Positions 7,759 through 47,267 of a DNA stretch of 64,000 bases are shown here, in pieces (positions within the stretch are counted from its first letter, which is position 1; each line of letters opens with the position of its first letter). Source of the stretch: Cytophagaceae bacterium (GTDB lineage Bacteria > Bacteroidota > Bacteroidia > Cytophagales > Spirosomataceae); the NCBI GenBank assembly GCA_027491315.1, contig JAIXWL010000004.1, positions 248,001 to 312,000 of the forward strand, read 5' to 3'. A program made the position numbers and the translations under genes. The notes under the pieces were generated by a model. It was given only the letters and a program-made list of their open reading frames with translations, was not told the origin of the DNA and made no database searches.

Positions 7759-8892
7759 ATGACTACTTTACCCAATTTGGATCAAAACAGTTTGAGTGCT
7801 AATCGCCTCTATTCTCTAGATACCTTACGCGGTTTCGACATGTTTTGGATCATGGGAGCTGATGAAATATTTCATACTATGTTCAAGGCTACTGATTCTC
7901 CTATTTGGGGATTCTTTGCGCATCAATTCTCGCATCCTTCTTGGCATGGATTCCGCTTTTACGATTTAATTTTCCCTCTTTTCTTATTTATGGCAGGCGT
8001 GGCCACTCCATTTTCCTTGGGTAAAGAAATAGAGAAAGGGAAAAACCGAGAGCAGCTTTTAATTAAAGTTATCAGAAGAGGTATCGTATTGGCTTTACTG
8101 GGTGTGGTTTACAACAATGGATTGGAGATTAAGCCATTAGAGGAAATTCGCTTCGGAAGCGTATTAGGTCGTATTGGTTTAGGCTATATGTTTGCCAATA
8201 TTATTTATTTATATACCAAAAAGCCTAGCATTCAAGCCATCTGGTTTGGTGGTATTTTAGCCTTTTATTACCTCATGTTGAAGTTTAACGCCGCTCCAGG
8301 ATTCCCTGCCGGAGATTTAAGTCAAGAAGGTAACTTCGCATCTTATTTGGATCGACTGGTCATGCCGGGTCGATTGTACAAAGGGAATCATGATCCTGAA
8401 GGCTTAACCTCGACCATTCCGGCTATTTCTACTGGATTATTAGGGATTTTAACAGGTAATTACTTGAAAAATGACCCAAGTGATGGTATTCAAAAGACCA
8501 AGCGCATGGCCATGTTTGGAGCATTTTTTATCATATTAGCTTTGATTTGGAATTTGGATTTCCCCATCAATAAAAACCTATGGTCGAGTTCCTTTGTCTT
8601 ACTAGTTGGGGGGATTAGTTTATTGTTATTGTCCCTGTTTTATTACATCATTGATGTAAAAGGCTATCAAAAATGGTCTTTTTTCTTCCGAATAATTGGT
8701 ATGAATTCCATCTTGATTTATATGTCAGGCGTATTTATCAATTGGGAATATAGTACGGATAGTGTATTCCATTGGTTGGGTCAATTGTTGGGGAATCCCT
8801 ACAATGCCGTTGCCATGGCTATATGTTATACGGGTATCAAATGGTATTTCCTATATTTTATGTACCAGAAAAAAGTATTTCTTCGGGTGTAA
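7759..8892 (+). CDS. DUF5009 / heparan-alpha-glucosaminide N-acetyltransferase-like membrane protein
   Basis: 377 residues with about ten hydrophobic segments. The opening motif SLDTLRGFDMFWIMGADE is diagnostic of the DUF5009/YeiB-like family related to lysosomal HGSNAT, which moves an acetyl group across a membrane onto sugar amino groups. DLIFPLFLFMAGVATPFSLG and RIGLGYMFANI are further conserved blocks. The family is common near carbohydrate-degradation genes in Bacteroidota. It probably has its own promoter (TAAATTTG at 7731). The stop codon is followed within 7 bp by a tandem heptamer array. Activity is inferred from family only. Confidence 0.88.
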   Translation: MTTLPNLDQNSLSANRLYSLDTLRGFDMFWIMGADEIFHTMFKATDSPIWGFFAHQFSHPSWHGFRFYDLIFPLFLFMAGVATPFSLGKEIEKGKNREQLLIKVIRRGIVLALLGVVYNNGLEIKPLEEIRFGSVLGRIGLGYMFANIIYLYTKKPSIQAIWFGGILAFYYLMLKFNAAPGFPAGDLSQEGNFASYLDRLVMPGRLYKGNHDPEGLTSTIPAISTGLLGILTGNYLKNDPSDGIQKTKRMAMFGAFFIILALIWNLDFPINKNLWSSSFVLLVGGISLLLLSLFYYIIDVKGYQKWSFFFRIIGMNSILIYMSGVFINWEYSTDSVFHWLGQLLGNPYNAVAMAICYTGIKWYFLYFMYQKKVFLRV

Positions 8893-8898
8893 GGAATC

Positions 8899-8989
8899 TA
8901 GAATGTAGAATTAAGAATGTAGAATGTAGAATTAAGAATGTAGAATTAAGAATGTAGAATTAAGAATGTAGAATGTAGAATTAAGAATT
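8899..8989 (+). repeat. Tandem heptamer array 1 (13 units, WAGAATK)
   Basis: Thirteen consecutive 7-bp units fill 91 bp without a gap. The units are TAGAATG, TAGAATT, AAGAATG and a final AAGAATT, so the consensus is WAGAATK. The TAA stop of the DUF5009 gene is at 8890-8892, and the intervening 8892-8898 (AGGAATC) looks like a degenerate first unit. There is no spacer and no hairpin, which excludes a CRISPR. It resembles the short tandemly repeated heptanucleotide sequences described in heterocystous cyanobacteria, but function is unknown. Confidence 0.97.
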
Positions 8990-9083
8990 AAATGCATATA
9001 CGTGCAGTTACTGGTAGGTTTTTTAACTGATTTTGGTAACTTGAACTTGATTAAATGAATTTTTTTTACCCTCATCCATTAAC

Positions 9084-10340
9084 ATGAAAAAAATTAAAAC
9101 GAGTATAGGCCAATGGGCATTGGCAACGCTTTCTTTGGGCATTTTAATGTCCAATAAACCTCTAACTAAATCAGTGGTAGAAGAATCTGCAGTCAAAGTA
9201 CCAGCAGGATTTAAGACCACGATTGTGGGCTCAAATTTGGGTGCTACGCGTCACTTAACTGTAGCTAACAATGGAGATATTTATGCCAAATTATCCAAAT
9301 TTAAGGATGGTAAAGGGATTGTCCATTTAAGAGATACCAATAAGGACGGCGTGGCGGATGAGACAAATTATTTCGGAGATTTTGTAGGAACGGGTATTCA
9401 AATTCAAAATGGTTATTTATATGCTTCTTCAAATTCGGGCGTAAATCGCTTTAAAATGAATGATAAGTTGGAAGTAGTAGATAAGGAGCACTACGAAAAT
9501 ATTGTGAGTGGATTAATCGATAAAGGTCGCGATAATGCCAAACCTTTTGTTTTTGATAAACAGTCCAATATGTATGTGACCATTGGTTCCTGGAACGATG
9601 CATGTCGGGTACCTGGAACTGGTCAAGGCATGGTTCCTTGTACTGTTTTGGATTCAGCTGGCGGTATTTGGAAATTTAAGGCTGATCAATTAGGTCAGAA
9701 ATTTCAAGATGGGAAACGCTATGTTACCGGATTAAAAAATGCGGTGGGTATTACATGGAATAATAAAACAAACAGCTTATTTGCTACCTCACATGGCCGT
9801 GGATTTTTTCATGATTTTTATCCTCAATACTATACACCCAAGCAAAGTGCTGAAATACCTGCCGAGTGTTTGTATGAGATTCATGAAGGAGACGATGGTG
9901 GTTGGCCAATCATCTATTATGATCAATTTCAAAATAAGAAGATTTTAGCACCAGAATACGGTGGAGATGGTAAGAAAACAGCAGGAGAAAAAGCGATTGA
10001 TCCTAAGGTGGCATTTCCAGCACATCTAGGACCTAATGACGTATTGTTTTACACAGGAAATCAATTTCCTGCCAAATATAAAAACGGTGCATTTGTAGCC
10101 TTTCATGGTCAAAACTCGGAATTGAAAAAGGGCTATTTTGTTGCTTTTGTGCCTTTTGTAAATAATAAGCCATCAGGTAAATGGGAAATCTTTGCAGATA
10201 ATTTTTCTGGTATTGATTTAGCAAAACCAACTGGCCCAGTTCAACATCGTCCATGTGGCTTAGCCCAAGGTCCGGATGGTTCATTGTATGTAGCGGATGA
10301 TTTGGGTGGAACCATTTTTAAGATTACGTATAAAAAATAA
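9084..10340 (+). CDS. PQQ-dependent sugar dehydrogenase-like (sorbosone/glucose dehydrogenase) beta-propeller
   Basis: 418 residues with an N-terminal Sec signal (MKKIKTSIGQWALATLSLGIL). The body is a six-bladed propeller of the glucose/sorbosone dehydrogenase type: VPAGFKTTIVGS opening, DTNKDGVADE, GLKNAVGITWNN, LYEIHEGDDGGWP and HRPCGLAQGPDGSLYVADDLGGTIFKITY at the end. In this family the propeller binds PQQ and oxidises aldose sugars in the periplasm. No heme motif is fused, unlike many relatives, so an external electron acceptor is needed. A clear rho-independent terminator follows at 10369-10402. PQQ binding is inferred, not seen. Confidence 0.87.
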   Translation: MKKIKTSIGQWALATLSLGILMSNKPLTKSVVEESAVKVPAGFKTTIVGSNLGATRHLTVANNGDIYAKLSKFKDGKGIVHLRDTNKDGVADETNYFGDFVGTGIQIQNGYLYASSNSGVNRFKMNDKLEVVDKEHYENIVSGLIDKGRDNAKPFVFDKQSNMYVTIGSWNDACRVPGTGQGMVPCTVLDSAGGIWKFKADQLGQKFQDGKRYVTGLKNAVGITWNNKTNSLFATSHGRGFFHDFYPQYYTPKQSAEIPAECLYEIHEGDDGGWPIIYYDQFQNKKILAPEYGGDGKKTAGEKAIDPKVAFPAHLGPNDVLFYTGNQFPAKYKNGAFVAFHGQNSELKKGYFVAFVPFVNNKPSGKWEIFADNFSGIDLAKPTGPVQHRPCGLAQGPDGSLYVADDLGGTIFKITYKK

Positions 10341-10368
10341 TGAACTTGTTTAAATAAGATCCCAAAAG

Positions 10369-10402
10369 ATGAGATGAGCTTTATTGTTCATCTCATTTTT
10401 TT
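10369..10402 (+). terminator. Rho-independent terminator of the sugar dehydrogenase-like gene
   Basis: An 11-bp stem (ATGAGATGAGC at 10369-10379 with GTTCATCTCAT at 10386-10396, one G-T pair), a TTTATT loop and a run of six T. It also argues that the following gene starts at 10416 rather than at an upstream codon at 10374, which would lie inside this hairpin. Confidence 0.85.
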
Positions 10403-10415
10403 AAGCCCCAATGCT

Positions 10416-11519
10416 ATGAAAATCTTTCGTTATTTCCTCTTTAGTTTAGTATGCTTGTTCTTTGTATCGCCATCCATGGCGCAAAATCAAGCGAGCCTCA
10501 AGCGATATTTGTATGTAGCTACTCCAGGTATACGGGATTATTTAGGTTATGGGGGACACGGGATTTTGGTGTTTGATATCAACAACAATCATCGATTTGT
10601 CAAACGAATAAAAACCCAAGGATTACATCCCAATGGAAAGCCTTCCAATGTGAAAGGAATTGCAGTGAGCATTCCATTAAATAGCCTGTATGTAAGTACA
10701 TTGGAATCTTTGCAACGCATTGATCTAAGCACAGAAAAAGTTATTTGGGAAATCCCCTTTGTGGGAGGATGTGACCGCATGTCGATTTCTCCTGATGGGA
10801 AAACCATGTATTTGCCTTCCCTAGAAAAAGATTTCTGGAATGTAGTTAATTGCGAAACAGGGGCAATTATGCAGACTTTAAAAGGATTCAAAAGAGCACA
10901 TAATACCTTATATGGTTTATCTGGTCAATACGTTTATTTGGCTGATATTGGTAATCCATGGTTATACCAAGTGGATGCCCAAAAGCACAGTTTGGTGCAG
11001 AAAATAGGGCCATTTAGCAATTTTGTTCGTCCATTTACTGTCAATGGCAAAGAAAGTATAGGATTAGTTACCGTGGATAGTTTATTGGGCTTTGAAGTAG
11101 GTGATTTAAAAACGGGAAAGAAATTAGCCAGTGTTGTGGTGGAAGGTTGGAATAAAGGACCCGTTCGTCGGCATGGTAATCCTAGTCACGGCATAGCTTT
11201 AACTCCCGATGAAAAAGAAATTTGGTTATGCGATGGCTATAATATGCGCTTGCATGTGTTTCAGGGAAAGGCGCCTTATCAGCAGTTGACCAGTATTCCT
11301 TTAAAAGATATGCCCGGGTGGATTAGTTTCTCCTTAGATGGGAAATATGCCTACCCCTCTAGCGGGGAGGTTATTGACCCAGTTAGCAGAAAGGTTTTAT
11401 ACCACTTAGAAGACGAAGAGCATAACTATGTATCTAGTGAAAAACTAGTTGAGATTGATTTCCAAGGTTCAAAAGCGGTCAGAGCGAGTGATCAATTTGG
11501 AAATGGAAAGGCTCGTTAA
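10416..11519 (+). CDS. Exported YncE-like beta-propeller protein
   Basis: 367 residues from the chosen ATG at 10416; a longer frame from 10374 would begin inside the upstream terminator and delay the signal peptide (MKIFRYFLFSLVCLFFVSPSMAQ). The body contains repeated WD/YVTN-type blades (YLYVATPG, NSLYVSTLESLQRID, MSISPDGKTMYLPS, GIALTPDEKEIWLCDGYN, WISFSLDGKYAYPSSG). Such proteins are periplasmic or surface propellers with mostly unknown ligands. Its stop overlaps the convergent AsmA gene: both TAA codons share TTAA at 11516-11519. No heme or metal motif is visible. Confidence 0.85.
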   Translation: MKIFRYFLFSLVCLFFVSPSMAQNQASLKRYLYVATPGIRDYLGYGGHGILVFDINNNHRFVKRIKTQGLHPNGKPSNVKGIAVSIPLNSLYVSTLESLQRIDLSTEKVIWEIPFVGGCDRMSISPDGKTMYLPSLEKDFWNVVNCETGAIMQTLKGFKRAHNTLYGLSGQYVYLADIGNPWLYQVDAQKHSLVQKIGPFSNFVRPFTVNGKESIGLVTVDSLLGFEVGDLKTGKKLASVVVEGWNKGPVRRHGNPSHGIALTPDEKEIWLCDGYNMRLHVFQGKAPYQQLTSIPLKDMPGWISFSLDGKYAYPSSGEVIDPVSRKVLYHLEDEEHNYVSSEKLVEIDFQGSKAVRASDQFGNGKAR

Positions 11520-14230: not shown

Positions 14231-14355
14231 GGAATGGTTATTTGAGGCGGTTTATTACAAAAATAAGAACAACAAGTTATTTAATTGGGTAAATCAGGTG
14301 GCATAGATTAAATTTACATTTTATTTCTGTGTCCAAGCTCAACATTTGTTTGATT

Positions 14356-15186: not shown

Positions 15187-15263
15187 AGGGGAGTTTCCTC
15201 TGGAAACGAAAAGAGAAATTCTCTTGAAATTTTAAGTTATTAGCTTGCCAACAATCAACCTTC

Positions 15264-15995: not shown

Positions 15996-16060
15996 TAGAA
16001 AGCTAGGGGAATTAGAGTATTTTTAGGTAATATTTCGGTATAATTTTATCTATTTAACTC

Positions 16061-17227: not shown

Positions 17228-17369
17228 GTTTATTTGCTCAGGAGGAATAAGCTTCTGGGGGCTATTTTTTGATTCTAAGCTGCTTACCTAATAGATGAAA
17301 TTCTAGGATACATAGCTTCATGAAATATGAATAGTTAGCCTAGGTTTTTTGAGGTATTTTTAAGCATAA

Positions 17370-17399
17370 AAAAAGCGATTTCTTGAGAGATCGCTTTTT
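17370..17399. terminator. Bidirectional rho-independent terminator
   Basis: AAAAAGCGAT at 17370-17379 pairs with ATCGCTTTTT at 17390-17399 around a 10-nt loop, with A and T runs on both sides. It serves the sialidase-like gene (+) and the PorP/SprF gene (-). Confidence 0.85.
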
Positions 17400-17418
17400 G
17401 TTTATTGATGAGGTTTTA

Positions 17419-20739: not shown

Positions 20740-23700
20740 TTATTTAACTTTTAGTCTATTAATGAAGATGTAAGTTGATATATTTGGTTTAACACCATAG
20801 AAATCAACGATGTAGTAGTAAACCCCATCAGGAAGTAAACCATCTTTTAAAATAAACACGTTAGAGCTTTCGCCACCCCAATCATTTTTGTAGTCTTTGG
20901 TTTCGTACACAATCTCACCCCAACGGTTGAAAATGGTCAATGTATTCTTGAATCCTAAGATTCCTGGAATAATCAATTTGTCATTTTTACCGTCACCATT
21001 TGGTGAAATACCTTGTGGAATAAACGAAGGACATACATCTGGATCTAAACGATTTGGAATTCCATCATTATCACAGTCAGGTAATCCGCCGTAATCTAGA
21101 TTGTCTTCCATGATATCTAGGATACCATCGTTATCATCATCTGTATCTTGGAAATCTGGTTTACCGTCTTTGTCTGTGTCTAATGGGGTAGAAGGGTTAG
21201 CACCAGCTTCTACTTTGTCCACCACGCCATCATTATCTGAATCCAAATCACGGAAGTCTGGTGTTCCATCTTTATCCGTGTCAACTGGTACAGATGGATT
21301 AGAACCGGCTTCTATTTTATCTGGGATACCATCATTATCTGTATCAGTATCTTGGAAATCTGGATTGCCGTCAGAATCTGTATCAATTGGGTTATTCGGG
21401 TTATTACCAGCTTCTACTTTATCAGGAATGCTGTCGTTATCCGAATCCAATTCACGGAAATCTGGAATACCATCTTTGTCGGTATCAGTTGGATTGCTTG
21501 GGTTTTTACCAGCTTCCACTTTATCCGGGATACCATCATTATCCGAATCTAAGTCACGGAAATCAGGTGTACCATCCTTATCTGTATCTACAGGATTGAT
21601 TGGGTCTTTACCCGCCTCAATGCTATCTGGGATACCATCATTATCCGAGTCTAAATCGCGGTAATCAGGTGTACCATCTTTATCGGTATCTACAGGGTTG
21701 TTTGGATCTACACCTGCCTCAAATAAATCTGGGATACCATCATTGTCCGAATCGGTATCACGGAAATCTGGCGTACCATCTTTGTCCGTATCTACTGGAT
21801 TATTAGGATCAGCACCTGCCTCTATTTTATCCGGGATACCATCATTATCAGAATCAAGATCACGGAAATCAGGTGTACCATCATTATCTGTATCTACTGG
21901 ATTATTTGGATCAGCACCAGCTTCAATTTTATCTGGGATACCATCGTTGTCAGAATCTAAATCCCTGAAATCAGGTGTGCCATCTTTATCTGTGTCAACA
22001 GGGTTATTTGGATCAGCACCGGCTTCAATTTTATCCGGAATACCGTCATTATCTGAATCTAAATCGCGGTAATCAGGCGTACCATCTTTGTCTGTATCCA
22101 CTGGATTATTTGGATCAGCACCAGCTTCTATTTTATCTGGGATACCATCATTATCTGAATCGATATCTCTGAAATCAGGTGTACCATCTTTATCCGTATC
22201 AACTGGATTAGTTGGATCAGCACCCGCTTCTACTTTATCAGGTATACCGTCATTGTCTGAATCTAAATCACGGAAGTCAGGTGTACCGTCTTTATCTGTA
22301 TCCACTGGATTAGTAGGATCAGCACCCGCTTCTATCTTGTCAGGGATGCCATCATTATCAGAATCTAAATCCTCAAAGTCTTTAGCTCCGTCATTATCTG
22401 TATCTACTGGTGAGTTACATGAAACAGCTTCTAAGGCATCTGGGATACCATCATTATCTGAATCAAGATCACGGAAGTTAGGTTTGTCATCACCATCGAT
22501 GTCACCGCCTAATTCAACTCGATCAGGAATACAATCATTGTCAGAATCTAAATCTAAGAAGTCTGGAGATCCGTCTTTGTCTGTGTCAATCACAGCAACA
22601 TATTGTCCGCGATCATCCCAACCATCTCCATTACCATCATTTAAGTTGGTACATGTAGCACATTTGTTCTTACCTTCCCAAGCATCTGGAATGGTATCAC
22701 CATCTGAATCTAGATCTAGGTAATTAGGGATTTTATCTCCATCATTATCTCCGTCTCTTTCATCACTATCTCCTAACCAATCACCGTCAGAATCTAAATC
22801 GCGGTAGTTAGGACGACCATCTCCATCTGGATCTGCGGTTAATTCTTTGCTATCTAATAAAGAATCACCGTCTGAATCTAAATCTAAATAATCAGGCGTA
22901 CCGTCTTTATCTGTATCTGGAATTGGAGCAGGATTAGACTCTAAGAAATCGGCTAAACCGTTTTTGTTAGCATCTATGAACGCGCCATTTACATCTACGC
23001 GACCATTGTAATTCGGGTCAATCACACCACGTCTTGAATCGGTTGCTTCCCATGCATCTAAGATAGAATCACCATCAGAATCAAGATCTAAGTAGTTTGG
23101 AATACCATCACCATCGCGGTCAGAATTTTTTTCTGTACTATCTAAGATACCATCATTATCAGAATCTAAATCTAAGTAGTTTGGAATACCGTCGCCATCA
23201 GAGTCAATGTTTTTCTCGATGCTATCTGGGATACCATCATTATCTGAATCTGGATCTTGGAAGTTTGGTAGACCGTCAGAATCGTAATCTTGGCAGTTAG
23301 GACCACCAGAAGCACATTCTACGCTGTTTGGTAGACCGTCATTATCACAGTCATTGGCTCCGAAAATCACATAACTTGGAGATCCAATAGCTGGAGGATT
23401 TCCACCTGCACCACCCACACAATAGTTAAGCGGTTGCGGATCAGTACCATTATTAGTTCCGTCACCATCACAATCGGTATTTCTCCAAGTCAAGGTCGTA
23501 TTCGCAAAAATTTGACTTGCAGGATTATAAGAACATCCATCATTTGGATTAGTTCCGTCAAGGGCTTCTTGCGCATCTGAAACTCCGTCACCATCAGTAT
23601 CTAATGGCGTTGGGGCGTTCACTACAATGGTAAAGGTATTAGATACAACACTTCCACCTGAATTAGTGGCAGTTACAGTGAAACTACTTATAGAAGTTAC

Positions 23701-25857
23701 AGCAGTAGGAGTACCGGTAATTTTTCCGTCAACTGTACTGAAAGATAAACCTGCTGGAAGTGTTCCACTTGTTAAAGCATAAGATACCACATTACCTGTA
23801 ACCGAAGGATTCAGCGATGGAATCGCAGTACCTACTGTATATACATTAGTAGTATTATAGGTTAATCCTGTAGGTGCTGGGTCATTAACAGTAATACTAA
23901 ATGTGTTGGAAACCGCATCACCACCTGCATTAGTAGCTGTTACAGTAAAGTTTCTTAAAGCAGTAACTGCCGTTGGAGTTCCTGTAATTTTACCATCTGC
24001 AGTATTAAAGCTTAAACCACTTGGTAAAGTACCTGATGTTAATGCATAAGTGTCAACCGTACCTGTTACAGCAGGGTTAAGCGAGGGAATCGCTGTACCG
24101 ACTGTGTAAACATTAGGTGTATTATAAGATAAACCAGTAGGAGCTGGTGGGGCTGTAGCAATTACGGTAATAGAAAAAGTATTAGATAGAATACTTCCAC
24201 CCGTGTTGGTTGCCGTTACAGTGAAATTTCTTATGGCTGTAACTGCCGTTGGAGTACCTGTGATTTTACCATTTGCCGTGTTGAACGATAATCCATCAGG
24301 TAAAGTTCCTGAAGTTAAGGCGTAGGAAACTACATTCCCTGTTACCGAAGGATCTAAGGAGGTAATCGCATTGTTTACTACATAAACTCGTGGTGTTGGG
24401 TAGCTTAAATTGCTAGGAGCTACATCGTTTACTGTTATAGTAAAGGTATTAGACACGGTACTACCGCCTGAATTTGTTGCCGTAACAGTAAAGCTTCTTA
24501 ACGCTGTAACTGTTGTTGGAGTACCTGTAATTTTACCATCAACTGTGCTAAAAGATAATCCAGCAGGCAATGTTCCTGAGGTTAATGCATAAGAAACTAC
24601 ATTACCTGTAACTGAAGGATTAAGCGAAGTAATGGCTGAGCCCGCAGTATATACATTAGTCGTATTATAAGTTAATCCTGTTGGTGCTACATCATTTACC
24701 GTGATAGAAAATGTGTTGGATGTAGTGCTTCCTAAGGCATTGGTCGCTGTTACCGTAAAGTTTCTTAATGCGGTAACTGCTGTAGGAGTTCCAGTAATTT
24801 TACCATTTGCTGTGTTAAATGATAAACCGGTTGGTAAGGTACCCGAAGCTAGTGCATAGGAAACAACTGGTCCTGTTACCGTAAGTGGATCAAGGGAAGT
24901 AATGGCGGATCCAACAGTATAAACATTAGGAGTTGGATAAGTTAAATTACTTGGAGCTGTTTCATTGTCGAGGATTGAAACAACCGTTGTATTGGTTACA
25001 ATGGCTGCGTTAACAGCGTCCGCAATTACAATATTGAATGTCTCTGTTCCTTCCGCTAATAAATCATCTAAAACGGGTACTGTGATAGTTTTGGAAGATT
25101 CTCCAATAGCAAATGTTAAGGTACCGCTAGTATTGGTATAATCCGTTCCATTGGTAGCTGTTCCACCAGAAGTGGTATAATTTACCGTAGTGGCAACCGT
25201 TGCAGCTGCACTTAACGTCACTGTGGATACAGCATTTACTCCTGCTACAGTTTCTGTTACACTAAGTGTAGAGGTAATGTTAAGTTTAGGCTGGGCTGCT
25301 AGGTAATCATTTAAACTTGATAACATTTGAGCTGGTGTAGCAGCATTTCCAGAAACTTCTCCAGCAACTAAATTTAATATTTGACCATTAAATGTCAAAC
25401 CTATGGCACTAGTAGCTAAGATGTTATAGTTTCCAGATGTAGTTGCAATGGTTACGTTGGTTCCCGTGGCAGGTCTAAAAACTATGGTTCTAATTGTTGC
25501 TCCCTGCGTTTCACGCCAATTTAAGAAGCCAGCAATAGAATGACTTACATTGTTGTTGTCTGTGAAAGTAACAGTTCCAGGTAAATCATTTCCTTGCAAT
25601 TCAAAAACGTTAGAACTTGAATTTTGCCCAAATGATAACTTGGTAATTCCACTAGTAGATGTAGCAAATGCCCCAGTAGCGTTGGGTTGGTTATTCGTAT
25701 TTGCTCCAATGAAACCATTGTTGAAGGATACAGACACAAAACCTGCCAAGGCAGGTGTGGCTGCTGAAAGTGAGATTAAAAAGGTGGCTAAAAATAAAAT
25801 CTTCAACAGGAAGGGTCGTTTTTTAGCCTCTTTGTTTGAGTTGAGGTTTTTGTGCAT
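20740..25857 (-). CDS. Giant repeat adhesin: Calx-beta, five putative-Ig repeats, thrombospondin type 3 calcium repeats, CHU_C sorting domain
   Basis: 1705 residues. Signal peptide ends near ATPALA (~residue 38). An N-terminal unassigned beta domain (~40-190) is followed by a Calx-beta domain (~195-300, LDDLLAEGTETFNIVI) and five ~85-residue putative-Ig (He_PIG-like) repeats (~300-740, each with SGTLPxGLSF and GKITGTPT). A thrombospondin type 3-like calcium-binding region (~750-1600) is built of DxDxDG motifs, including twelve regular 34-residue units. The C-terminal CHU_C domain (IPQGISPNGDGKND to INRLKVK) directs type IX secretion. It is therefore a surface adhesin or cell-wall-spanning rod stiffened by Ca2+. 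PorP/SprF copy 2 follows. Upstream lies an 18-bp poly-A tract (26179-26196). Confidence 0.95.
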   Translation of the reverse strand: MHKNLNSNKEAKKRPFLLKILFLATFLISLSAATPALAGFVSVSFNNGFIGANTNNQPNATGAFATSTSGITKLSFGQNSSSNVFELQGNDLPGTVTFTDNNNVSHSIAGFLNWRETQGATIRTIVFRPATGTNVTIATTSGNYNILATSAIGLTFNGQILNLVAGEVSGNAATPAQMLSSLNDYLAAQPKLNITSTLSVTETVAGVNAVSTVTLSAAATVATTVNYTTSGGTATNGTDYTNTSGTLTFAIGESSKTITVPVLDDLLAEGTETFNIVIADAVNAAIVTNTTVVSILDNETAPSNLTYPTPNVYTVGSAITSLDPLTVTGPVVSYALASGTLPTGLSFNTANGKITGTPTAVTALRNFTVTATNALGSTTSNTFSITVNDVAPTGLTYNTTNVYTAGSAITSLNPSVTGNVVSYALTSGTLPAGLSFSTVDGKITGTPTTVTALRSFTVTATNSGGSTVSNTFTITVNDVAPSNLSYPTPRVYVVNNAITSLDPSVTGNVVSYALTSGTLPDGLSFNTANGKITGTPTAVTAIRNFTVTATNTGGSILSNTFSITVIATAPPAPTGLSYNTPNVYTVGTAIPSLNPAVTGTVDTYALTSGTLPSGLSFNTADGKITGTPTAVTALRNFTVTATNAGGDAVSNTFSITVNDPAPTGLTYNTTNVYTVGTAIPSLNPSVTGNVVSYALTSGTLPAGLSFSTVDGKITGTPTAVTSISSFTVTATNSGGSVVSNTFTIVVNAPTPLDTDGDGVSDAQEALDGTNPNDGCSYNPASQIFANTTLTWRNTDCDGDGTNNGTDPQPLNYCVGGAGGNPPAIGSPSYVIFGANDCDNDGLPNSVECASGGPNCQDYDSDGLPNFQDPDSDNDGIPDSIEKNIDSDGDGIPNYLDLDSDNDGILDSTEKNSDRDGDGIPNYLDLDSDGDSILDAWEATDSRRGVIDPNYNGRVDVNGAFIDANKNGLADFLESNPAPIPDTDKDGTPDYLDLDSDGDSLLDSKELTADPDGDGRPNYRDLDSDGDWLGDSDERDGDNDGDKIPNYLDLDSDGDTIPDAWEGKNKCATCTNLNDGNGDGWDDRGQYVAVIDTDKDGSPDFLDLDSDNDCIPDRVELGGDIDGDDKPNFRDLDSDNDGIPDALEAVSCNSPVDTDNDGAKDFEDLDSDNDGIPDKIEAGADPTNPVDTDKDGTPDFRDLDSDNDGIPDKVEAGADPTNPVDTDKDGTPDFRDIDSDNDGIPDKIEAGADPNNPVDTDKDGTPDYRDLDSDNDGIPDKIEAGADPNNPVDTDKDGTPDFRDLDSDNDGIPDKIEAGADPNNPVDTDNDGTPDFRDLDSDNDGIPDKIEAGADPNNPVDTDKDGTPDFRDTDSDNDGIPDLFEAGVDPNNPVDTDKDGTPDYRDLDSDNDGIPDSIEAGKDPINPVDTDKDGTPDFRDLDSDNDGIPDKVEAGKNPSNPTDTDKDGIPDFRELDSDNDSIPDKVEAGNNPNNPIDTDSDGNPDFQDTDTDNDGIPDKIEAGSNPSVPVDTDKDGTPDFRDLDSDNDGVVDKVEAGANPSTPLDTDKDGKPDFQDTDDDNDGILDIMEDNLDYGGLPDCDNDGIPNRLDPDVCPSFIPQGISPNGDGKNDKLIIPGILGFKNTLTIFNRWGEIVYETKDYKNDWGGESSNVFILKDGLLPDGVYYYIVDFYGVKPNISTYIFINRLKVK
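21187..22410 (-). repeat. In-frame tandem 102-bp repeat (12 units) in the adhesin gene
   Basis: Twelve head-to-tail 102-bp units encode 34-residue thrombospondin type 3-like repeats, each starting Pro-x-Asp-Thr-Asp (e.g. PVDTDKDG) and containing DLDSDNDGIPD and an EAGxxP spacer. A thirteenth unit (21085-21186) is degenerate. Middle units are nearly identical in protein, so copy number may vary by recombination and is prone to misassembly. Confidence 0.95.
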
Positions 25858-33528: not shown

Positions 33529-34755
33529 TTATAGCCCGGAATGTTTTCCCGCAATATACCCTGTTGTCCAGGCGGCTTGGAAATTAAATCCTCCTGTTAT
33601 TCCGTCAATATCGAGCAATTCTCCGGCAAAGTATAAGCCTGGAATTACTTTGCTTTCCATGCTTTGTACATCTATTTCAGCCAGGTCAATTCCTCCGGCT
33701 GTCACGAATTCTTCTTTAAATGTTGTTTTGCCCATGACCTGATAGCGATCATTCAGTAAGGTATTAACTAATTTGTTTACTTGTTTTGGGTTGACCTCAT
33801 TCCAACGGGAAGCGGGTAAAATTTCGTTTTTGGTGAGTAAGAAGTTCCAAAGACGAGTTGGTATAGGAAATGGACAATGATTGCTCATCATTTTGCCACC
33901 ATGGATTTTCCTTGTCTGATCTAAGATGAGGCGAAGTTCTGCTTCTTTCATCTCATCTAACCAATTTACTAAAATGGAAAATTGGTAATTTAATTCAGCT
34001 AGGATTCTAGCTCCCCAGGCGGATAATTGCAAAATAGCCGGACCGCTCATACCCCAGTGTGTTATTAGCAAAGGGCCCTTACCCAATAATTTTTGACCTT
34101 CAATGCGGACTGTTGCTTTCTCCACCACAAGTCCCATGAATTCCTTAATGGCTTCATTTGGCATGTTGAAAGTGAAAAGGGAAGGAACTGGAGGAATAAC
34201 AGTATGTCCTAGTGCCGACAGCCAAGCTAATCCACTTAATTTAGGTTGTCCACCGGTGGTGACAATCACCCGGTCTGCGGTGATGATTTTGTCTTTGCTG
34301 CGTAAGGTGAAACTTCCGTCTTCATGTTTTTCCATAGTATCTATACTATGGTGCAACAATAATTCGATATCGAGTTTTTTTGATTCTCTTAAAAAACAAT
34401 CCATGATGCTTTGCGAGCTATTTGATAGAGGGAAAACGCAGCCGTCTGGATAGGTTTTTAAAACCACATTTCTTTGCTCAAACCACTCCATGGTATTGGC
34501 CGCATTGAATTGTTCAAAGGCCTTTTTTAGGAATTTCTCTCCTCTGGGATAATGTTCAGCTAATTTTCTGTTGTTAAATTCAGCATGACATACATTACAC
34601 CTGCCGCCACCCGAAATTTTCACTTTAGCCAAAAAGTGCGAGGTTTTTTCCAAGATTTGCACATGGGCTTGTGGATGGTGGTATTTTGCCGATAAGGCCG
34701 CAAAAAAACCTGCTGCACCACCCCCAATAACACTAATTCGTAAATCCTTTGACAT
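33529..34755 (-). CDS. BaiN/HI0933 family flavoprotein (NAD(P)/FAD-dependent oxidoreductase)
   Basis: 408 residues. The N-terminal dinucleotide motif VIGGGAAGFFAALSA, then ISGGGRCNVCHAEF, VTTGGQPKLSG, LFTFNMPNEA, THWGMSGPAIL and the C-terminal FAD motif LYFAGELLDIDGITGGFNFQAAWTTGY are all signature blocks of the HI0933/YhiN family. The physiological reaction is unknown in most bacteria; BaiN of gut Clostridia reduces bile acid intermediates. It is cytoplasmic. The 17-unit heptamer array lies directly upstream, ending 18 bp before this start, so any promoter must lie within or beyond the array. Confidence 0.9.
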   Translation of the reverse strand: MSKDLRISVIGGGAAGFFAALSAKYHHPQAHVQILEKTSHFLAKVKISGGGRCNVCHAEFNNRKLAEHYPRGEKFLKKAFEQFNAANTMEWFEQRNVVLKTYPDGCVFPLSNSSQSIMDCFLRESKKLDIELLLHHSIDTMEKHEDGSFTLRSKDKIITADRVIVTTGGQPKLSGLAWLSALGHTVIPPVPSLFTFNMPNEAIKEFMGLVVEKATVRIEGQKLLGKGPLLITHWGMSGPAILQLSAWGARILAELNYQFSILVNWLDEMKEAELRLILDQTRKIHGGKMMSNHCPFPIPTRLWNFLLTKNEILPASRWNEVNPKQVNKLVNTLLNDRYQVMGKTTFKEEFVTAGGIDLAEIDVQSMESKVIPGLYFAGELLDIDGITGGFNFQAAWTTGYIAGKHSGL

Positions 34756-34773
34756 TATTTTCTACCGTGCAAA

Positions 34774-34892
34774 ATCCCTAATCCCTAATCCCTAAAACCT
34801 AATCCCTAAAACCTAATCCCTAAAACCTAATCCCTAATCCCTAACCCCTAATCCCTAACCCCTAATCCCTAATCCCTAACCCCTAATCCCTA
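34774..34892 (-). repeat. Tandem heptamer array 2 (17 units, TAGGGAT type)
   Basis: Seventeen perfect-length 7-bp units (119 bp). Read on the minus strand they are TAGGGAT, TAGGTTT and TAGGGGT; on the plus strand ATCCCTA, AAACCTA and ACCCCTA. A degenerate eighteenth unit (34893-34899) contains the TAG stop codon of mgtC. The CCCTAA look is telomere-like only by chance. There are no spacers. Confidence 0.97.
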
Positions 34893-34896: not shown

Positions 34897-35523
34897 CTAA
34901 AATTCCAAATGCTTGATTTTATCATTTTTCAGCAATTGACTGGCAATCAAATGATGCGCTTTTTCTGAACCTTGAACCGTAAGATTGAAGGTGAAATCTT
35001 TGCCAGATTTTATTTTTTGAGAATATAGAATTTTCATTTTTAGCTTTTTGAAAAGCAGTTCCACATGTTTATAATCAAAGCTTTCAGAATATTCAAATAT
35101 CAACGTATATACACGTACGTGATTTAGTTTACTGATAAAATTTTGAACCAAAATAAAGGCGCTCAATATGATAATGACGATGGCCGATGTGAAACAAGCT
35201 AATAATTCAAATCCTGCTCCAATGGTCATCCCCAAGGCTGAAACCACCCAAATGGTGGTGGCTGTGGTTATACCGGTAACCCGATCTTTTTCTCTGAATA
35301 TCACTCCAGCTCCCAGGAAACCTATACCTGTCAATACGTTAGCCGCAATTCTATCTTGGCTTCCTATGCCTATTTTGTAGGAAAGTATGGTGAAAATACA
35401 TGATCCCACACACACCAAAATCATGGTTCTTAAACCGGCAGATTTGGAACGATATTCCCTTTCAAGGCCTATGATGGCCCCTATCAGGATAGAAAGTAAA
35501 ATTCGTTCTAGGTCGATATACAT
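34897..35523 (-). CDS. MgtC/SapB family membrane protein
   Basis: 208 residues. Conserved N-terminal block LERILLSILIGAIIGLEREYRSKSAGLRTMILVCVG, and NVLTGIGFLGAGVIFRE, with four to five transmembrane segments up to residue ~125. The C-terminal soluble region (RVYTLIFEYSESFDYKHVELLFKKLKM) is ACT-like. MgtC proteins inhibit F-type ATP synthase or aid growth at low Mg2+ in pathogens; in environmental bacteria the role is unclear. The TAG stop is embedded in the degenerate end of the heptamer array. Confidence 0.93.
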   Translation of the reverse strand: MYIDLERILLSILIGAIIGLEREYRSKSAGLRTMILVCVGSCIFTILSYKIGIGSQDRIAANVLTGIGFLGAGVIFREKDRVTGITTATTIWVVSALGMTIGAGFELLACFTSAIVIIILSAFILVQNFISKLNHVRVYTLIFEYSESFDYKHVELLFKKLKMKILYSQKIKSGKDFTFNLTVQGSEKAHHLIASQLLKNDKIKHLEF

Positions 35524-36324: not shown

Positions 36325-36327
36325 GAT

Positions 36328-38979: not shown

Positions 38980-39015
38980 ATTGGATAAGTTGAGTGTTTT
39001 TTGGACAATGGAAGG

Positions 39016-39023
39016 CAAAAATA
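39016..39023 (-). promoter_or_regulatory. Putative -7 promoter element (TATTTTTG)
   Basis: Minus-strand TATTTTTG, 36 bp upstream of the preferred start at 38979. The nearest TTTG upstream is too close (10 bp) to be a proper -33 element. Confidence 0.4.
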
Positions 39024-40695: not shown

Positions 40696-40868
40696 ATCAT
40701 TCCTGGTTTAAGATGGCGACGTATTTTTGAATCCTAGCTGGCGCCTCCTTAATTCTATTTCAATATTTATACCCTATTTTGAATAATTTTCTTTGGGAAA
40801 GGATAGAAATTACTAATTTTTCATGTAGCTTAATTTCATAATTGACCAAACAATAATTTCATTGAAAT

Positions 40869-41813: not shown

Positions 41814-41825
41814 ACCTAGAATTCA

Positions 41826-42845: not shown

Positions 42846-42851
42846 TATATG

Positions 42852-43664: not shown

Positions 43665-43674
43665 ACTTTTACCT

Positions 43675-44010
43675 ATGCAGCGATTTTGTTTAGCCTTAGA
43701 CCTTGTGGATGATCCCATGCTAATTCAAGAATATGAACAATACCATGCCCCTGGAAGTGCTTGGCCAGAAGTAACGCAGCATGATATAGATGCCGGCATT
43801 ACGAACATTGAGATATTTCGCACTGGGAATCGAATGTTTATGATATTGGAAACAGACGATGCTTTCACCTTTGAGAAAAAAGCAATCTTTGATGCGACAA
43901 ATCCAAAAATAGCCGCTTGGGAAGAATTAATGTGGAAGTTTCAAAAGCCACTCCCTTGGGCTAAGCCCGGTCAGAAGTGGGTCTTGATGGATCGTATATT
44001 TAAGTCATAA
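43675..44010 (+). CDS. L-rhamnose/L-fucose mutarotase (RhaM-type)
   Basis: 111 residues, full length for the family. RFCLALDLVDDPMLIQEYEQYH, then ITNIEIFRTGNRMFMILETDD and MWKFQKPLPWAKPGQKWVLMDRIFK match the COG3254 mutarotase family, with catalytic His in the YHA segment. It interconverts alpha and beta anomers of 6-deoxy-L-sugars. Its presence strengthens the idea that the operon handles L-fucose or L-rhamnose-like sugars. Terminator at 44011-44041. Confidence 0.9.
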   Translation: MQRFCLALDLVDDPMLIQEYEQYHAPGSAWPEVTQHDIDAGITNIEIFRTGNRMFMILETDDAFTFEKKAIFDATNPKIAAWEELMWKFQKPLPWAKPGQKWVLMDRIFKS

Positions 44011-44042
44011 AAATAGGCCAGCAGGTAATGCTGGCCTATTTT
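44011..44042. terminator. Bidirectional rho-independent terminator
   Basis: AAATAGGCCAGCA (44011-44023) pairs with TGCTGGCCTATTT (44029-44041), 13 bp, loop GGTAA, T run. It ends the sugar operon and lies at the stop of the convergent DUF3500 gene. Confidence 0.9.
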
Positions 44043-44043
44043 T

Positions 44044-45075
44044 TTAATGTTGGTGATGCTCTGCGGTTCTGTAATGTTCTTTGAGTAAATCAGTTCCAAA
44101 ATCCCCTCTGAAATCTCTCCAAACGGTATGGATGTGGTTGGCATTATCTTGGGTATTGTCAAATTCTACTAAAAATGACTTTCCTTGAATTCGGTAATAA
44201 TGTGCTTTTTTACGTTCTGTATTACCTGCCCAGGCAAATTTGACGGCATTGAAATCTTCATTGGCAATATGCTTTAAGCGCATCTCCGCTATTTTCGGAG
44301 GCATTGCCGACAAATAATGCATGATTAATTGGTTCAAGCTAGCTTTTTGTTGGACGCTCATTTCTTTCACAGAAATACCTTCATCGGGTAGTGGTCCTAC
44401 ATGTACCGAATTGGTAGTCACCACTTCATTGAAAGTGCTTAAACTAAAAATGGCTTTGGCTTTTTGTTTATCCGACATGGAATTAATTAATTCCAAGGCC
44501 ATGTCTTCTTCTTCCTTCATTAATCGAGTTCCTTTTCTTTCGCCGGATTCGGCTTCAGCAGGGTATACCCCAAAGAAGAAAGGAGCATAGGATAATTTAT
44601 CATCCACGATGGTAAAGTTGAGTGCTATGTGATGTCCTCCAAATTTCCATCCCCAAACATTATCTTTACTGGGGTCACCGTAAAAAGCTACGAATTGATT
44701 TTCAGGAATTCTACTCGGGTTTTTGGGTTGAATTTCTTTCAAATAATATTCAAAATCCATGATGTCGCGTGTTTTCTTAAAGCCTTTTTCACTTAAATAA
44801 ACTTGCATGAAATCATAGAGCAATTGTTTCTGGTTGGCATCCATATCCTTCACCACGGTTCCATGTCGAGCTACCATGGTAGGAGGCAGAAAGTGCCAGT
44901 TGAAACGGGTCACGGCATCAAAGGGATACAATGCCCTACTTTTTTGTGCGTCGCTCAGGGATTGGATAAAAGCCATGGCTTTCTGTACTCCCGGACTGTT
45001 GGATTGGGCTATACTCCAAAATGGAGCTATGCCCAAGAACAAACAGCCTAGTAAAAAAATGCATTTTCTTTTCAT
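44044..45075 (-). CDS. DUF3500 domain exported protein
   Basis: 343 residues from ATG 45075 (an upstream TTG would add 8 residues before the signal MKRKCIFLLGCLFLGIAPFWSIAQ). The body is a DUF3500 domain: RFNWHFLPPTMVARHGTVVKDM, FVAFYGDPSKDNVWGWKFGGHHIALNFTIVDDKLSYAPFFFGVYPAE and HYYRIQGKSFLVEFDNTQDNANHIHTVWRDFRGDFGTDLL, which has several His/Asp/Glu that could bind metal. Function unknown; often near esterase or hydrolase genes. It follows the Gfo/Idh/MocA gene by 27 bp. Confidence 0.9.
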   Translation of the reverse strand: MKRKCIFLLGCLFLGIAPFWSIAQSNSPGVQKAMAFIQSLSDAQKSRALYPFDAVTRFNWHFLPPTMVARHGTVVKDMDANQKQLLYDFMQVYLSEKGFKKTRDIMDFEYYLKEIQPKNPSRIPENQFVAFYGDPSKDNVWGWKFGGHHIALNFTIVDDKLSYAPFFFGVYPAEAESGERKGTRLMKEEEDMALELINSMSDKQKAKAIFSLSTFNEVVTTNSVHVGPLPDEGISVKEMSVQQKASLNQLIMHYLSAMPPKIAEMRLKHIANEDFNAVKFAWAGNTERKKAHYYRIQGKSFLVEFDNTQDNANHIHTVWRDFRGDFGTDLLKEHYRTAEHHQH

Positions 45076-45102
45076 GTAAATGGTTGATTGAGGTTTCAAT
45101 AT

Positions 45103-46215
45103 TTAGTATTTGATGGATACTTTTTTGCCAGTTTTTACCGCTTCAAAGATGGCTTCAATGATTTTCATATCTTTTAAGCCTTCTTCTCCATCCACAGGTA
45201 TTTTGGGAACGCGGCCATCGTGTATGATCCCGGCAAATTCATCCATTTGTGTGGTTTGATGTGTTATGTGTGGAAAGCTCAATTCCCCTTTATTGGTTTT
45301 CGCTTTGATAGGCCCATAGCCTGTCGATGGCATCATTTCAGCAAATCCTTTGGTGCCATTCAAATAAAATTTGTCCAAATTGTTGAGAGCGTAGGTCGAT
45401 AAACATGAAGCCACCGCCCCACTCGGGAATCCCATTTGGAATTGTATGGTTTCATCCACTCCTTCCTTGAATTTCTCTGGATCGGTTTTGGTTTCTTGGG
45501 CAGTAACCCAGCTAGGTTCTTCACCTACCATGTACCGTGCGCCGTTGATGGAATAAATACCAATGTCCATCATGGAGCCTCCCCCTGCTAATTGTTTGTT
45601 TAGTCGCCATTGTTTAGGGTCACCAATGATAAAACCTGATAGGCCTTGGAAGAATAAAATTTTACCAAATTCACCTGCTTCTCTTTTCTTGATGATTTCT
45701 AAGGTATTAGGCTCAAAGTGCATGCGATAGCCAATCAGTAATTTGACACCTGCTTTTTTGCAAGCATCAATCATGCGTTGAGCATCTTTCACATTCGTGG
45801 CCATTGGTTTTTCACTAATGACATGTTTTCCTAGATTGGCGACTTGAATGGCAAACTCTGGATGTCGACTATTTGGAGTCATGATGTACACGGCATCGAT
45901 GTCCGGATTATTCTTGATTTTATTTAACTCTTCATACGAAAAGCGATGGGATTTTGGGACATTGTATTTATCACCCCATTGATCTAATTTGCTCGGAGTA
46001 CCACTGATTAATGCTGTTATCTTGGCCCTTTTACAATTTTGCATAGCTTTCGCTACGATATTGGCATAGCCCCCTAGACCTAATAAGGCCACTTTTAACA
46101 CAGGTCCATCTTCAAGGGTATTGAGACTTTCTGCCTTGGATTCACTGGGAGAGATAAATGGTATGGCTAATAATGGAGCAGAGACCATTTGAATGAAATT
46201 TCTACGAGAACTCAT
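45103..46215 (-). CDS. Gfo/Idh/MocA family oxidoreductase, Tat-exported
   Basis: 370 residues from ATG 46215, which begins a twin-arginine signal (SSRRNFIQMVSAPLLAIP); the longer frame to 46308 runs through the promoter region. N-terminal Rossmann motif VALLGLGGYANIVAKAM, family hallmark VISEKPMATN, YRMHFEPNTL and GGGSMMDIGIYSINGARYM for the C-terminal domain. Relatives such as glucose-fructose oxidoreductase are exported with bound NADP and act on sugars in the periplasm. It sits 27 bp upstream of the DUF3500 gene in one transcription unit. Divergent from the GDPD gene. Confidence 0.9.
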   Translation of the reverse strand: MSSRRNFIQMVSAPLLAIPFISPSESKAESLNTLEDGPVLKVALLGLGGYANIVAKAMQNCKRAKITALISGTPSKLDQWGDKYNVPKSHRFSYEELNKIKNNPDIDAVYIMTPNSRHPEFAIQVANLGKHVISEKPMATNVKDAQRMIDACKKAGVKLLIGYRMHFEPNTLEIIKKREAGEFGKILFFQGLSGFIIGDPKQWRLNKQLAGGGSMMDIGIYSINGARYMVGEEPSWVTAQETKTDPEKFKEGVDETIQFQMGFPSGAVASCLSTYALNNLDKFYLNGTKGFAEMMPSTGYGPIKAKTNKGELSFPHITHQTTQMDEFAGIIHDGRVPKIPVDGEEGLKDMKIIEAIFEAVKTGKKVSIKY

Positions 46216-46332
46216 CGTTGATTCAAAATTTAAATAGGTGATGATTAATGCCTTAAAACTAAAGAATTTAAAGATAAAATGGATGTAAATTTTATTTATC
46301 CTTCTCAAATGGGCTTTGTGAGCAATATGCGC

Positions 46333-46340
46333 TATTTTTG
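46333..46340 (+). promoter_or_regulatory. Putative -7 promoter element (TATTTTTG)
   Basis: Exact TAnnTTTG match 30 bp upstream of the GDPD start; a TTTG lies 14 bp before it, shorter than usual spacing. Confidence 0.45.
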
Positions 46341-46370
46341 TTTTTACTATTTGACTAAACCTAGATAAAA

Positions 46371-47231
46371 ATGATGAAAATTTGCCATTACTTGGGCCTA
46401 TTCTTGTGCCTGATAATTACGCCAATACAAGCTCAAAAAAGTACAGCGTATTTTAAGAAAATTCAAAAATCTTACCTTAATACACAGGAGCCTTTGGTGA
46501 TGATTGCTGCTCATCGAGGAGCTCATTTGGATGAACCAGAAAACTCCTTGGCTGCTTTGCGAAAAACCATAGAATTAGGTGTAGACATCATGGAATTGGA
46601 TGTGCGCTTTACCAAGGATAAGAAAATGGTCTTAATGCATGATAAAAAAGTGGATAGAACTACCAATGCCAAGGGTTTGGTATCGGATTTCACCTTTGAG
46701 GAAATCAGAAAATTACGTTTGAAGCATCGGGAAAATTTAAGCAATGAGCAAATCCCGACCTTGGAGGAGGCTTTTCAATTAGCCAAAGGAAAAGTATTAA
46801 TTGATTTGGATATCAAAGATGACGCTACCTTGGATTCCATCATTGTACTCGTGAATCGAATGAAAATGGAGAAGAATTGCTTCTTTTTTGTCTATGAACC
46901 AGAAGAGATTTTCATGTTACAAAAGCAGAATAAGAACTTTCAAATCATGATTCGTACTGAAAATGAGGAGGCGGTTAAAAAACTAGTAGCCTCAGGTGCC
47001 AAGCCGCAGGCCGTTCACATTGATCCCAGTCATTATACAACGGAGGTAGTTAATGCCATCAAAAAAATTCCTGCACGCGTCTGGATTAATTCCTTGGGAG
47101 CAGTAGATTTTAAGGCATCCCAACAGCCTCAGGCATTTGAGGAAGTATTGAAATTGGGTGCCAACATGATTCAAACAGATCAACCAGCTAAATTAAAGGA
47201 ATACTTAAAAAGCCAAGGGAAATATAGATGA
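46371..47231 (+). CDS. Glycerophosphodiester phosphodiesterase family protein, exported
   Basis: 286 residues with a signal peptide (ICHYLGLFLCLIITPIQAQ). GDPD active-site blocks are visible: IAAHRGAHLDEPENSLAAL (His, Glu), GVDIMELDVRFTKDKKMVLMHDKKVDRTTNAKG (Glu, Asp, His), and LIDLDIKD. The enzyme hydrolyses glycerophosphodiesters to glycerol 3-phosphate and an alcohol in the periplasm. The second codon is also ATG. The TGA stop is followed directly by heptamer array 3 and then by a 56-bp palindrome. Confidence 0.92.
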   Translation: MMKICHYLGLFLCLIITPIQAQKSTAYFKKIQKSYLNTQEPLVMIAAHRGAHLDEPENSLAALRKTIELGVDIMELDVRFTKDKKMVLMHDKKVDRTTNAKGLVSDFTFEEIRKLRLKHRENLSNEQIPTLEEAFQLAKGKVLIDLDIKDDATLDSIIVLVNRMKMEKNCFFFVYEPEEIFMLQKQNKNFQIMIRTENEEAVKKLVASGAKPQAVHIDPSHYTTEVVNAIKKIPARVWINSLGAVDFKASQQPQAFEEVLKLGANMIQTDQPAKLKEYLKSQGKYR

Positions 47232-47232
47232 G

Positions 47233-47267
47233 GGATTAGTGATTAGTTTTTAGTGATTAGGGATTGG
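47233..47267 (+). repeat. Tandem heptamer array 3 (5 units, GATTAG type)
   Basis: GGATTAG, TGATTAG, TTTTTAG, TGATTAG and GGATTGG follow one another from 47233, 1 bp after the GDPD stop codon. In phase with the other arrays this reads TAGTGAT, TAGTTTT, TAGTGAT, TAGGGAT, the same family as array 2 (TAGGGAT) in inverted genomic orientation. It is short and degenerate. Confidence 0.85.

Follow-up and report, generated by a model that had tools for sequence, protein, structure and literature searches.

The DNA analyzed here (the window) is a stretch of 64,000 nucleotides from the genome of a freshwater bacterium related to Aquirufa (Cytophagaceae bacterium, assembly GCA_027491315.1), and it forms part of contig C2 of a genome of 2.92 Mb in 17 contigs. 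As judged by its DUF5009 protein, the nearest named relatives are five Aquirufa species with 91 to 93% identity, a comparison from which the source genome's own records may have been left out. The window carries three arrays of heptamer repeats at the ends of genes. Period-7 arrays were located by Tandem Repeats Finder at positions 8894-8991, 34773-34892, and 47234-47265, and our own period-7 scan extended the third to 47227-47273. The arrays, which belong to two unit families termed A and G, and their neighboring genes, named from Pfam, are as follows, "arm" denoting an array on one strand and "gap" the DNA between two genes.

7759..8892, + strand: DUF5009 protein gene, with its stop before array 1
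8894..8991, + strand: array 1, family A (TAGAATT, TAGAATG, AAGAATG), about 13 units, a single arm in a tandem (++) gap
9084..10340, + strand: glucose/sorbosone dehydrogenase-like gene, after array 1
33529..34755, - strand: HI0933-like flavoprotein gene, after array 2
34773..34892, - strand: array 2, family G (TAGGGAT, TAGGGGT, TAGGTTT), 17 units, a single arm in a tandem (--) gap
34897..35523, - strand: MgtC family gene, with its stop before array 2
46371..47231, + strand: GDPD gene, with its stop inside array 3
47227..47273, + strand: array 3, family G (TAGTGAT, TAGTTTT, TAGGGAT), about 6 units, a single arm in a convergent (+-) gap
47278..47325, no strand: palindrome CCGTCCTGAAAAA...TTTTTTCAGGACGG, directly 3' of array 3, found by eye
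47371..48558, - strand: class I/II aminotransferase gene, convergent, after array 3

A sequence-only reading of the window had stated that each array abuts a stop codon in the sense of the preceding gene, and this proved correct. The 5' edge of array 1 lies 1 bp past the DUF5009 stop (TAA, ending at 8892), array 2 starts 4 bp past the mgtC stop (TAG, from 34897), which is in register with the array, and array 3 covers the GDPD stop (TGA, ending at 47231). The same reading held that most units begin with TAG and that each array places stops in all three frames. The latter applied to all three arrays, and the former to differing degrees, with 8/13, 17/17, and 4/6 units of arrays 1, 2, and 3 beginning with TAG when read in phase. 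Stops were also present in all three frames of the opposite strand.

With the window arrays as queries, at least 73 arrays of the two families were gathered genome-wide by BLAST and pattern search; one of these searches gave 203 matches in all, and the collection was drawn among the matches listed. The search for families A and G covered the whole genome, and that for other families a 464-kb sample comprising the window and 20 blind 20-kb stretches of this genome. In that sample period 7 and its double, 14, alone stood out, with 7 and 9 segments at a score of at least 14, the other periods from 4 to 15 giving 0 or 1 each. The window was denser in arrays than the 400 kb of blind stretches, which gave two gaps with 4 arrays and one weaker array. 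The score threshold was 13 for the first array set and 12 for the four-species set and later counts. The family A unit is GAATG followed by T, A, or G and then A (TAGAATG, AAGAATG, GAGAATG) and is without a G-tract. The family G unit is TTAG followed by three variable bases, and the family mixes units with GGG (TAGGGAT, TAGGGGT) and units without it (TAGTGAT, TAGTTAT).

The rule that these arrays obey is one of geometry: they are arms of intergenic elements, fixed in position and polarity. None of 78 arrays lay inside coding DNA. Among the 66 arrays with a known 5' neighbor, 51 had a sense stop opposite the 5' edge (median distance, 1 bp) and 15 a start codon (median distance, 42 bp), with the same strand rule. 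Stops opposite the 3' edge were found for 40 arrays and were much farther off, with a median distance of 150 bp. The nearer edge was the 5' edge in 50 of the 55 arrays with both neighbors known (54/60 at threshold 12). An excess within 0 to 10 bp of sense stops beyond the window, which the sequence-only reading had proposed as a check, was indeed observed, since the 5' edge lay no farther than 8 bp past a sense stop in 33/55 arrays compared with 1.5 expected under random intergenic placement (3,000 trials, maximum 7). Three relatives behaved likewise, in stretches picked among the listed BLAST matches to family A and G arrays. There the 5' edge was within -25 to +8 bp of the stop in 20/25 (A. 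ecclesiirivi, G045), 11/12 (G020), and 7/10 (G017) stop-facing arrays, after 11, 3, and 2 period-7 segments of neither family, respectively, had been dropped. A scan of blind stretches of four genomes with a regular expression for two-unit motifs gave few intergenic matches (14, 6, 2, and 1) and a weaker pattern, with the 5' edge nearer in 10/14 in this genome (G000) and 4/6 in A. ecclesiirivi. A general base skew behind stops was rejected as the source of polarity, as plain gene ends were nearly without GC skew in their first 20 bp (0.06 for convergent and 0.00 for tandem ends, versus 0.87 for array ends). A search of five array loci against Rfam returned two tRNAs only and no known RNA family at the arrays.

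Wherever a gap held scored arms on both strands, the left arm was on the + strand and the right arm on the - strand, so that the two faced each other (43/43 gaps in four species: 22/22 here and 11, 5, and 5 in the three relatives), the orthologous sites among these gaps not being independent. Thirty-eight of the 43 gaps were complete (23 convergent, 14 tandem, and 1 divergent) and 5 touched a contig end. When short arms were included, in complete gaps of up to 900 bp with longer gaps and contig ends left out, the four species gave 45 facing, 0 back-to-back, 0 mixed, and 26 one-strand gaps, the facing share being 28/35 in convergent, 16/29 in tandem, and 1/7 in divergent gaps. The outer arms were of the same family in 39/43 gaps, and the spacer between scored same-family arms in this genome ranged from 13 to 444 bp.

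Convergent gene ends that carry arrays were short of intrinsic terminators. Terminator-like hairpins were sought anywhere in the gap, with the arrays cut out, and in this genome were found at 3/31 convergent ends with their own array versus 37/74 array-free ends; the length-matched expectation for the array ends was 11.8 hairpins (P = 0.0005). The corresponding counts were 0/10 in A. ecclesiirivi (5.8 expected, P = 0.00015), 0/9 in G020 (6.0 expected, from 8 plain ends only), and 0/5 in G017, which had no matched plain ends. Earlier forms of the test gave 1/31 array ends versus 21/57 others within 110 bp of the stop, and 3/31 versus 28/48 in gaps of 60 to 700 bp. Terminator-like sites were also called in the surroundings of the three window arrays, and all of them lay outside the gaps of those arrays. 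Of five two-arm pieces from this genome, chosen for short spacers, four folded strongly (z from -6.8 to -11.7), and the forms of G017 and G020 also folded, with z of -3.6 and -4.2. As to composition, transcripts leaving genes in convergent gaps met a 78-nucleotide window with a C/G ratio above 2 at 24/24 pair ends and 12/16 single-arm ends versus 19/48 array-free ends.

Four sites were compared in this genome and five relatives. At two of them the facing arms, of 2 to 18 units, were kept in all five relatives. At C3:52.8 kb the facing arms stand at the same gene edges in all five, with A-type units on both arms (2 to 18 units) here and in four relatives; in G017 both arms carry G-type units (3 and 4), that is, both have switched family. 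At C3:45.2 kb facing G-type arms were present in all six genomes, with 22 and 20 units here and 2 to 5 in the relatives, and arm length at one site can therefore span 2 to 22 units between genomes. These comparisons suggest that arms lengthen, shorten, and can change family and that position and symmetry are kept.

The sites of the three window arrays were more variable. Array 1 was missing in four named Aquirufa relatives (L061 to L064), where the flanks were alike by eye, and was present in a short degenerate form in A. ecclesiirivi (L060). At the place of array 2, no scored array was found in the other 27 loci examined; degenerate G-type arms were present in three relatives (L141 to L143) and none in G005 (L144). 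Behind the GDPD gene, inspection by eye showed a G-type arm in three relatives (G020, G024, and G045), a vestige of one in a fourth (G017), and nothing of the kind in G005. At the aminotransferase end, also by eye, G020 had a pair of G-type arms and G017 a pair of a third family; the arms were mixed in G045, and G024 had one that was degenerate. In G005 this end carried a GC-rich hairpin and a weak T-run, and in the window it has a G arm followed by a palindrome like that of an insertion sequence (IS). This palindrome (47278-47325) resembles both ends of an IS element, as in an internally deleted remnant, and occupies the place expected for a facing arm; similar IS ends were seen by eye elsewhere in the genome (L052, about 3217-3323; L058, about 1265-1310; and L023). 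The gap between the GDPD and aminotransferase genes (47232-47370) is 139 bp here, whereas the two matches are 1.7 to 4.6 kb apart in four relatives and on separate contigs in the fifth, and genes have therefore probably been lost beside array 3.

Some further features of this genome were observed on the way. In 7/78 arrays (L043, L045, L048, L049, L052, L058, and the window at 47274), an IS-end motif (GTCCTGA/TCAGGAC) is no more than 25 bp from an edge. Several contigs end at such points, which suggests that the assembly is interrupted by arrays and IS copies. At L051 (10440-11697), a gap of 1.2 kb contains a mosaic in which heptamer arms and a repeated block (ggctgaggctctcgaagccaa) are nested. 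Apart from the heptamer arrays, the window has a 1705-residue open reading frame (- strand) that holds long tandem repeats at 21114-22483 and 23626-24945, with units of 102 bp and 267 bp.

Other units were found beyond the two families. The Aquirufa relatives G019 and G013 had AGTCGAT, AGAGTAT, and AAAGCAT/AAAGCAC, and G034, from another family of bacteria, had period-7 arrays with the unit AGTTCTT; in G022 no period-7 arrays were found in 60 kb. Facing pairs were seen by eye in the set of G019, G013, and G034 (for example, L179, L186, and L207), and one arm at L205 departs from this pattern. In a pattern search of 39 genomes, 15 of the 24 further genomes from the genus reached 10 or more TAG-heptamer runs, a number no less than three times that of a reversed-pattern control; among 14 genomes of other families, G034 and G038 were clearly above the control, G026 was weakly so, and G037 was below it. 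G038 (L190 to L204), again from another family, has CTAGNNN heptamers, which read the same on both strands and are therefore without polarity, making this genome a natural control.

With the positions, polarity, and pairing of the arms, the orthologous arms at some sites, the joint switch at one site, and the shortage of intrinsic terminators as the observations in hand, we tentatively favor, at a little under even probability, a role of these elements as expandable, hairpin-like, bidirectional transcription terminators or insulators. Termination, the formation of hairpins in the cell, and any role of Rho are here what we infer from the sequence. An element consists of two inverted, facing heptamer arrays, sometimes of one arm only, with a variable spacer, and on either side its TAG- and G-rich strand leads 5' to 3' away from the gene and into the gap. 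It would act at the 3' ends of transcription units, in both directions. Owing to the fixed polarity, transcripts would meet the G-rich, C-poor arm first and the C/U-rich arm last; read-through RNA would fold the two arms into a long hairpin with a U/C-rich 3' half, and the 3' arm, being free of G, may in addition serve to load Rho. Contact with the stop codon would then be a by-product, with the arm beginning as soon as the functional part of the gene is over. The bidirectional intrinsic terminators known from gaps between convergent genes are inverted repeats with a purine- or A-rich 5' side and a U-rich 3' side in both directions. The array elements resemble them in place, in being inverted repeats, and in presenting a purine-rich arm first and a U/C-rich arm last both ways, but differ in the low G+C content of the stem, the long and variable loop (13 to 444 bp), and in that no U-tract was found.

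Several observations weigh against this reading. One-strand gaps make up 15/37 complete array-bearing gaps in this genome, including all three window gaps, and are unable to form a two-arm hairpin; single arms, the three window arrays among them, do not fit it. Four of the 43 pairs mix families, and the unit patterns of arms in one gap were not significantly closer than those between gaps (P = 0.057, 0.42, and 0.82), G-type arms sharing few units (mean cosine, 0.30). The arms therefore seem to lengthen separately, and the idea that they were copied from one another was rejected for want of significant similarity within gaps. No U-tract was found behind the stems, and the elements as a whole do not show the features of intrinsic terminators (a stem rich in G+C, a short loop, and a U-tract). 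At three ends with arrays, a terminator-like hairpin was present as well (L042, and L046 twice), and at the tandem array ends of this genome 0/12 had a terminator versus 1.6 expected, which is not significant. The fifth folded piece (L059, with its second arm cut short) gave a z of -1.4, and the short forms of G005 and G024 folded no better than shuffled sequences (z of -1.6 and -0.8). At the other two of the four compared sites, the anchors in the relatives enclosed different sequence, or no array was clear: at C2:162.9 kb there was about one unit per arm in G005 and 2.2 to 2.7 kb between the matched flanks in the other four, and at C2:167.2 kb, a single arm here, A-type beginnings were followed by about 0.5 kb of other sequence in G017, G024, and G045, some with IS-like ends, with no clear array in G005 and a contig break in G020. 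The array at L055 (3311-3363) lies about 50 bp past a 5S rRNA gene (Rfam), beyond its apparent terminator. Finally, the Rho-like composition of the arms follows from the unit sequence and so provides no independent test, and the neighbor genes were called with our own codon model. Beside the L055 case, the same terminator-like sequence precedes the array at L034 (122-168), where the Rfam search gave no 5S match above its threshold.

The sequence-only reading had offered two origins for the contact with stops, growth out of stop-codon regions or selection as stop cassettes. On the latter, the arrays were selected, or arose, to set stops in all three frames behind genes. Three sense-frame stops were in fact present in 45/48 arrays of at least 42 bp, and TAG was enriched as the gene stop, ending 22/51 array-adjacent genes versus 70/362 genes overall; 10 of those 22 genes overlap the array, and there are 12 TAG stops among the 32 genes without overlap. 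The decisive arrays are those with three-frame stops on both strands, since selection for sense stops cannot separate their two orientations. There are 24 of them at 42 bp or longer. Among the 20 with both neighbors known, 19 were nearer at the 5' edge, 13 had that edge no farther than 8 bp past a sense stop, and only 1 had its 3' edge as near to an antisense stop. G-type arrays of this length, which carry TAA on the reverse strand, have such stops in 20/20 cases and still keep their polarity. The arms also follow the same rule beside start codons, where no stop is needed (15/66), and facing pairs occur between tandem genes as well (16/29 array-bearing tandem gaps, none reversed). The gene stop was out of register with the array in 33/47 cases. 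It was in register in 14/47, compared with 6.7 expected (P = 0.005), and in the relatives in 6/22, 3/11, and 3/8, none of which was significant; where an array overlaps the gene end the register is automatic, which accounts for much of the excess and leaves seeding from a stop codon as a weak candidate. Growth out of local stop-codon regions also fails to explain the recurrence of the same two families at dozens of places. Arrays often supply or favor the stop of the gene, but the stop does not set the polarity of the array, and the stop cassette, rejected as the cause by the arrays with three-frame stops on both strands, is very unlikely.

A serious rival to the terminator reading is neutral expansion, in which short inverted seeds between transcription units would grow by replication slippage and recombination between arrays, without function, and would halt at the gene edge only because further growth harms the gene. 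This is a real possibility, though we do not expect it to be the answer. The 2 to 22 units at one site in different genomes, the absence of array 1 between like flanks in four of the five named relatives, the IS-end motifs near 7/78 array edges, the stops in register in 14/47, and the lack of detailed coadaptation between the arms of one gap are all as it would have them. By itself, it does not explain the single polarity in 43/43 gaps, which holds beside starts as well, the family match of the arms (39/43), the family switch of both arms, or the shortage of intrinsic terminators. Single arms would gain a role if the elements were Rho-loading insulators. Transcripts entering a gene from the gap would carry the G-free, C-containing strand (CATTCTA, CCCTAAT), which would recruit Rho and end antisense or read-through transcription. 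The same polarity beside stops and starts, the C/G ratios at pair and single-arm ends given above, and the presence of a Rho gene in the genome agree with this, and the arms match the C>G part of the Rho utilization (rut) criteria in the available part of PMC6407284, which are C>G over 78 nucleotides with regular C. That composition is a consequence of the units rather than independent evidence, and AGTCGAT and AAAGCAT of other Aquirufa and AGTTCTT of another family are not G-free on the other strand; we consider the proposal unlikely. Even taken together, two further proposals are highly improbable. The facing arms might be the long terminal inverted repeats of an element like a miniature inverted-repeat transposable element, or a reverse transcriptase or telomerase-like enzyme might add the repeats to DNA ends. 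The occurrence of two repeat families at dozens of loci would suit both, and facing polarity would be expected from terminal inverted repeats or if both 3' ends at a break were extended with repeats. By eye, no common spacer sequence was noticed in the listed gaps, and no target duplication at the empty site of array 1 or in those gaps. The reverse transcriptase profile PF00078, a single family model, had no match in this genome, G019, G005, or the array-rich G045, and matches in G013 and G024, and enzymatic addition was rejected on the four genomes without a match. The G-quadruplex was likewise rejected as a common basis, as family A is without a G-tract.

Degenerate heptanucleotide repeats in intergenic DNA are familiar from heterocystous cyanobacteria as short tandem repeats (STRR). 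The sequence-only reading had pointed to this likeness, and a likeness to other bacterial heptamer repeats was borne out. In the available part of the report by Rehm et al. (2015; PMC4692102), G-rich heptamer repeats (GGGNATC-type and GGGGA(C/T)T) in Xanthomonas and Nostoc have degenerate units, are mostly intergenic, and comprise 2 to 26 units; those of Xanthomonas lie nearer the 5' open reading frame in any orientation (28 versus 160 nucleotides on average). Relative to genes, they sit on the coding strand when near a stop and on the noncoding strand when near a start, in either case no more than 50 bp away. Facing (convergent) pairs number 70 and 75 in two Xanthomonas genomes and only a few in Nostoc, and length differs between species with the single or pair type usually kept. 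The repeats formed quadruplexes in vitro, no function was found, and the word "terminator" is absent from the main text. The elements described here share with those repeats the period of 7, the intergenic location (0/78 in coding DNA), the closer 5' open reading frame (54/60), and the facing pairs (43/43 two-strand gaps). Unlike them, the family A of these Aquirufa kin has no G-tract, falls outside the G-rich unit, and cannot form a G-quadruplex; the phylum is another, stop contact is tighter (median of 1 bp), and convergent genes flank most of the pairs. Relative to what that part of the report describes, two features are new: the shortage of intrinsic terminators and the family change of both arms at one site. 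MacGregor (2015; PMC4679880), in the part available, described TAACTGA direct repeats in Beggiatoaceae, Cyanobacteria, and a few Bacteroidetes, which in a Beggiatoaceae strain lie mostly a few nucleotides upstream of starts, with one "indirect" repeat against 169 direct sets. These too are intergenic heptamer direct repeats with stops on one strand, and their indels are mostly 7-nucleotide steps, but the units here are others and 51/66 arrays face a stop on the 5' side. Literature searches on heptamer repeats in Bacteroidetes/Flavobacter found only PMC4679880, and those on tandem repeats in Aquirufa found none; no closer system turned up among the other papers listed.

Compared with known heptamer repeats, then, the Aquirufa elements need no G-tract, are in tighter contact with the stop, and are placed where intrinsic terminators are scarce. 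The parts of PMC4692102 and PMC4679880 considered here leave the function of heptamers open, and the former centers on G-quadruplexes. Since repeats without a G-tract show the same layout, it is the layout that needs explaining, and the shortage of intrinsic terminators at array-bearing ends makes a role in termination cheaply testable. A broader proposal, which we regard as doubtful, is that of one general 3'-end element across phyla whose geometry rather than sequence is conserved. In it, two period-7 arms that face each other, their G-richer strands pointing away from the adjoining genes, would do the work of an intrinsic terminator or insulator, and the unit would turn over freely, in both arms together. 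If this were true, G-quadruplexes, stop codons, and particular motifs would be side features of single repeat families.

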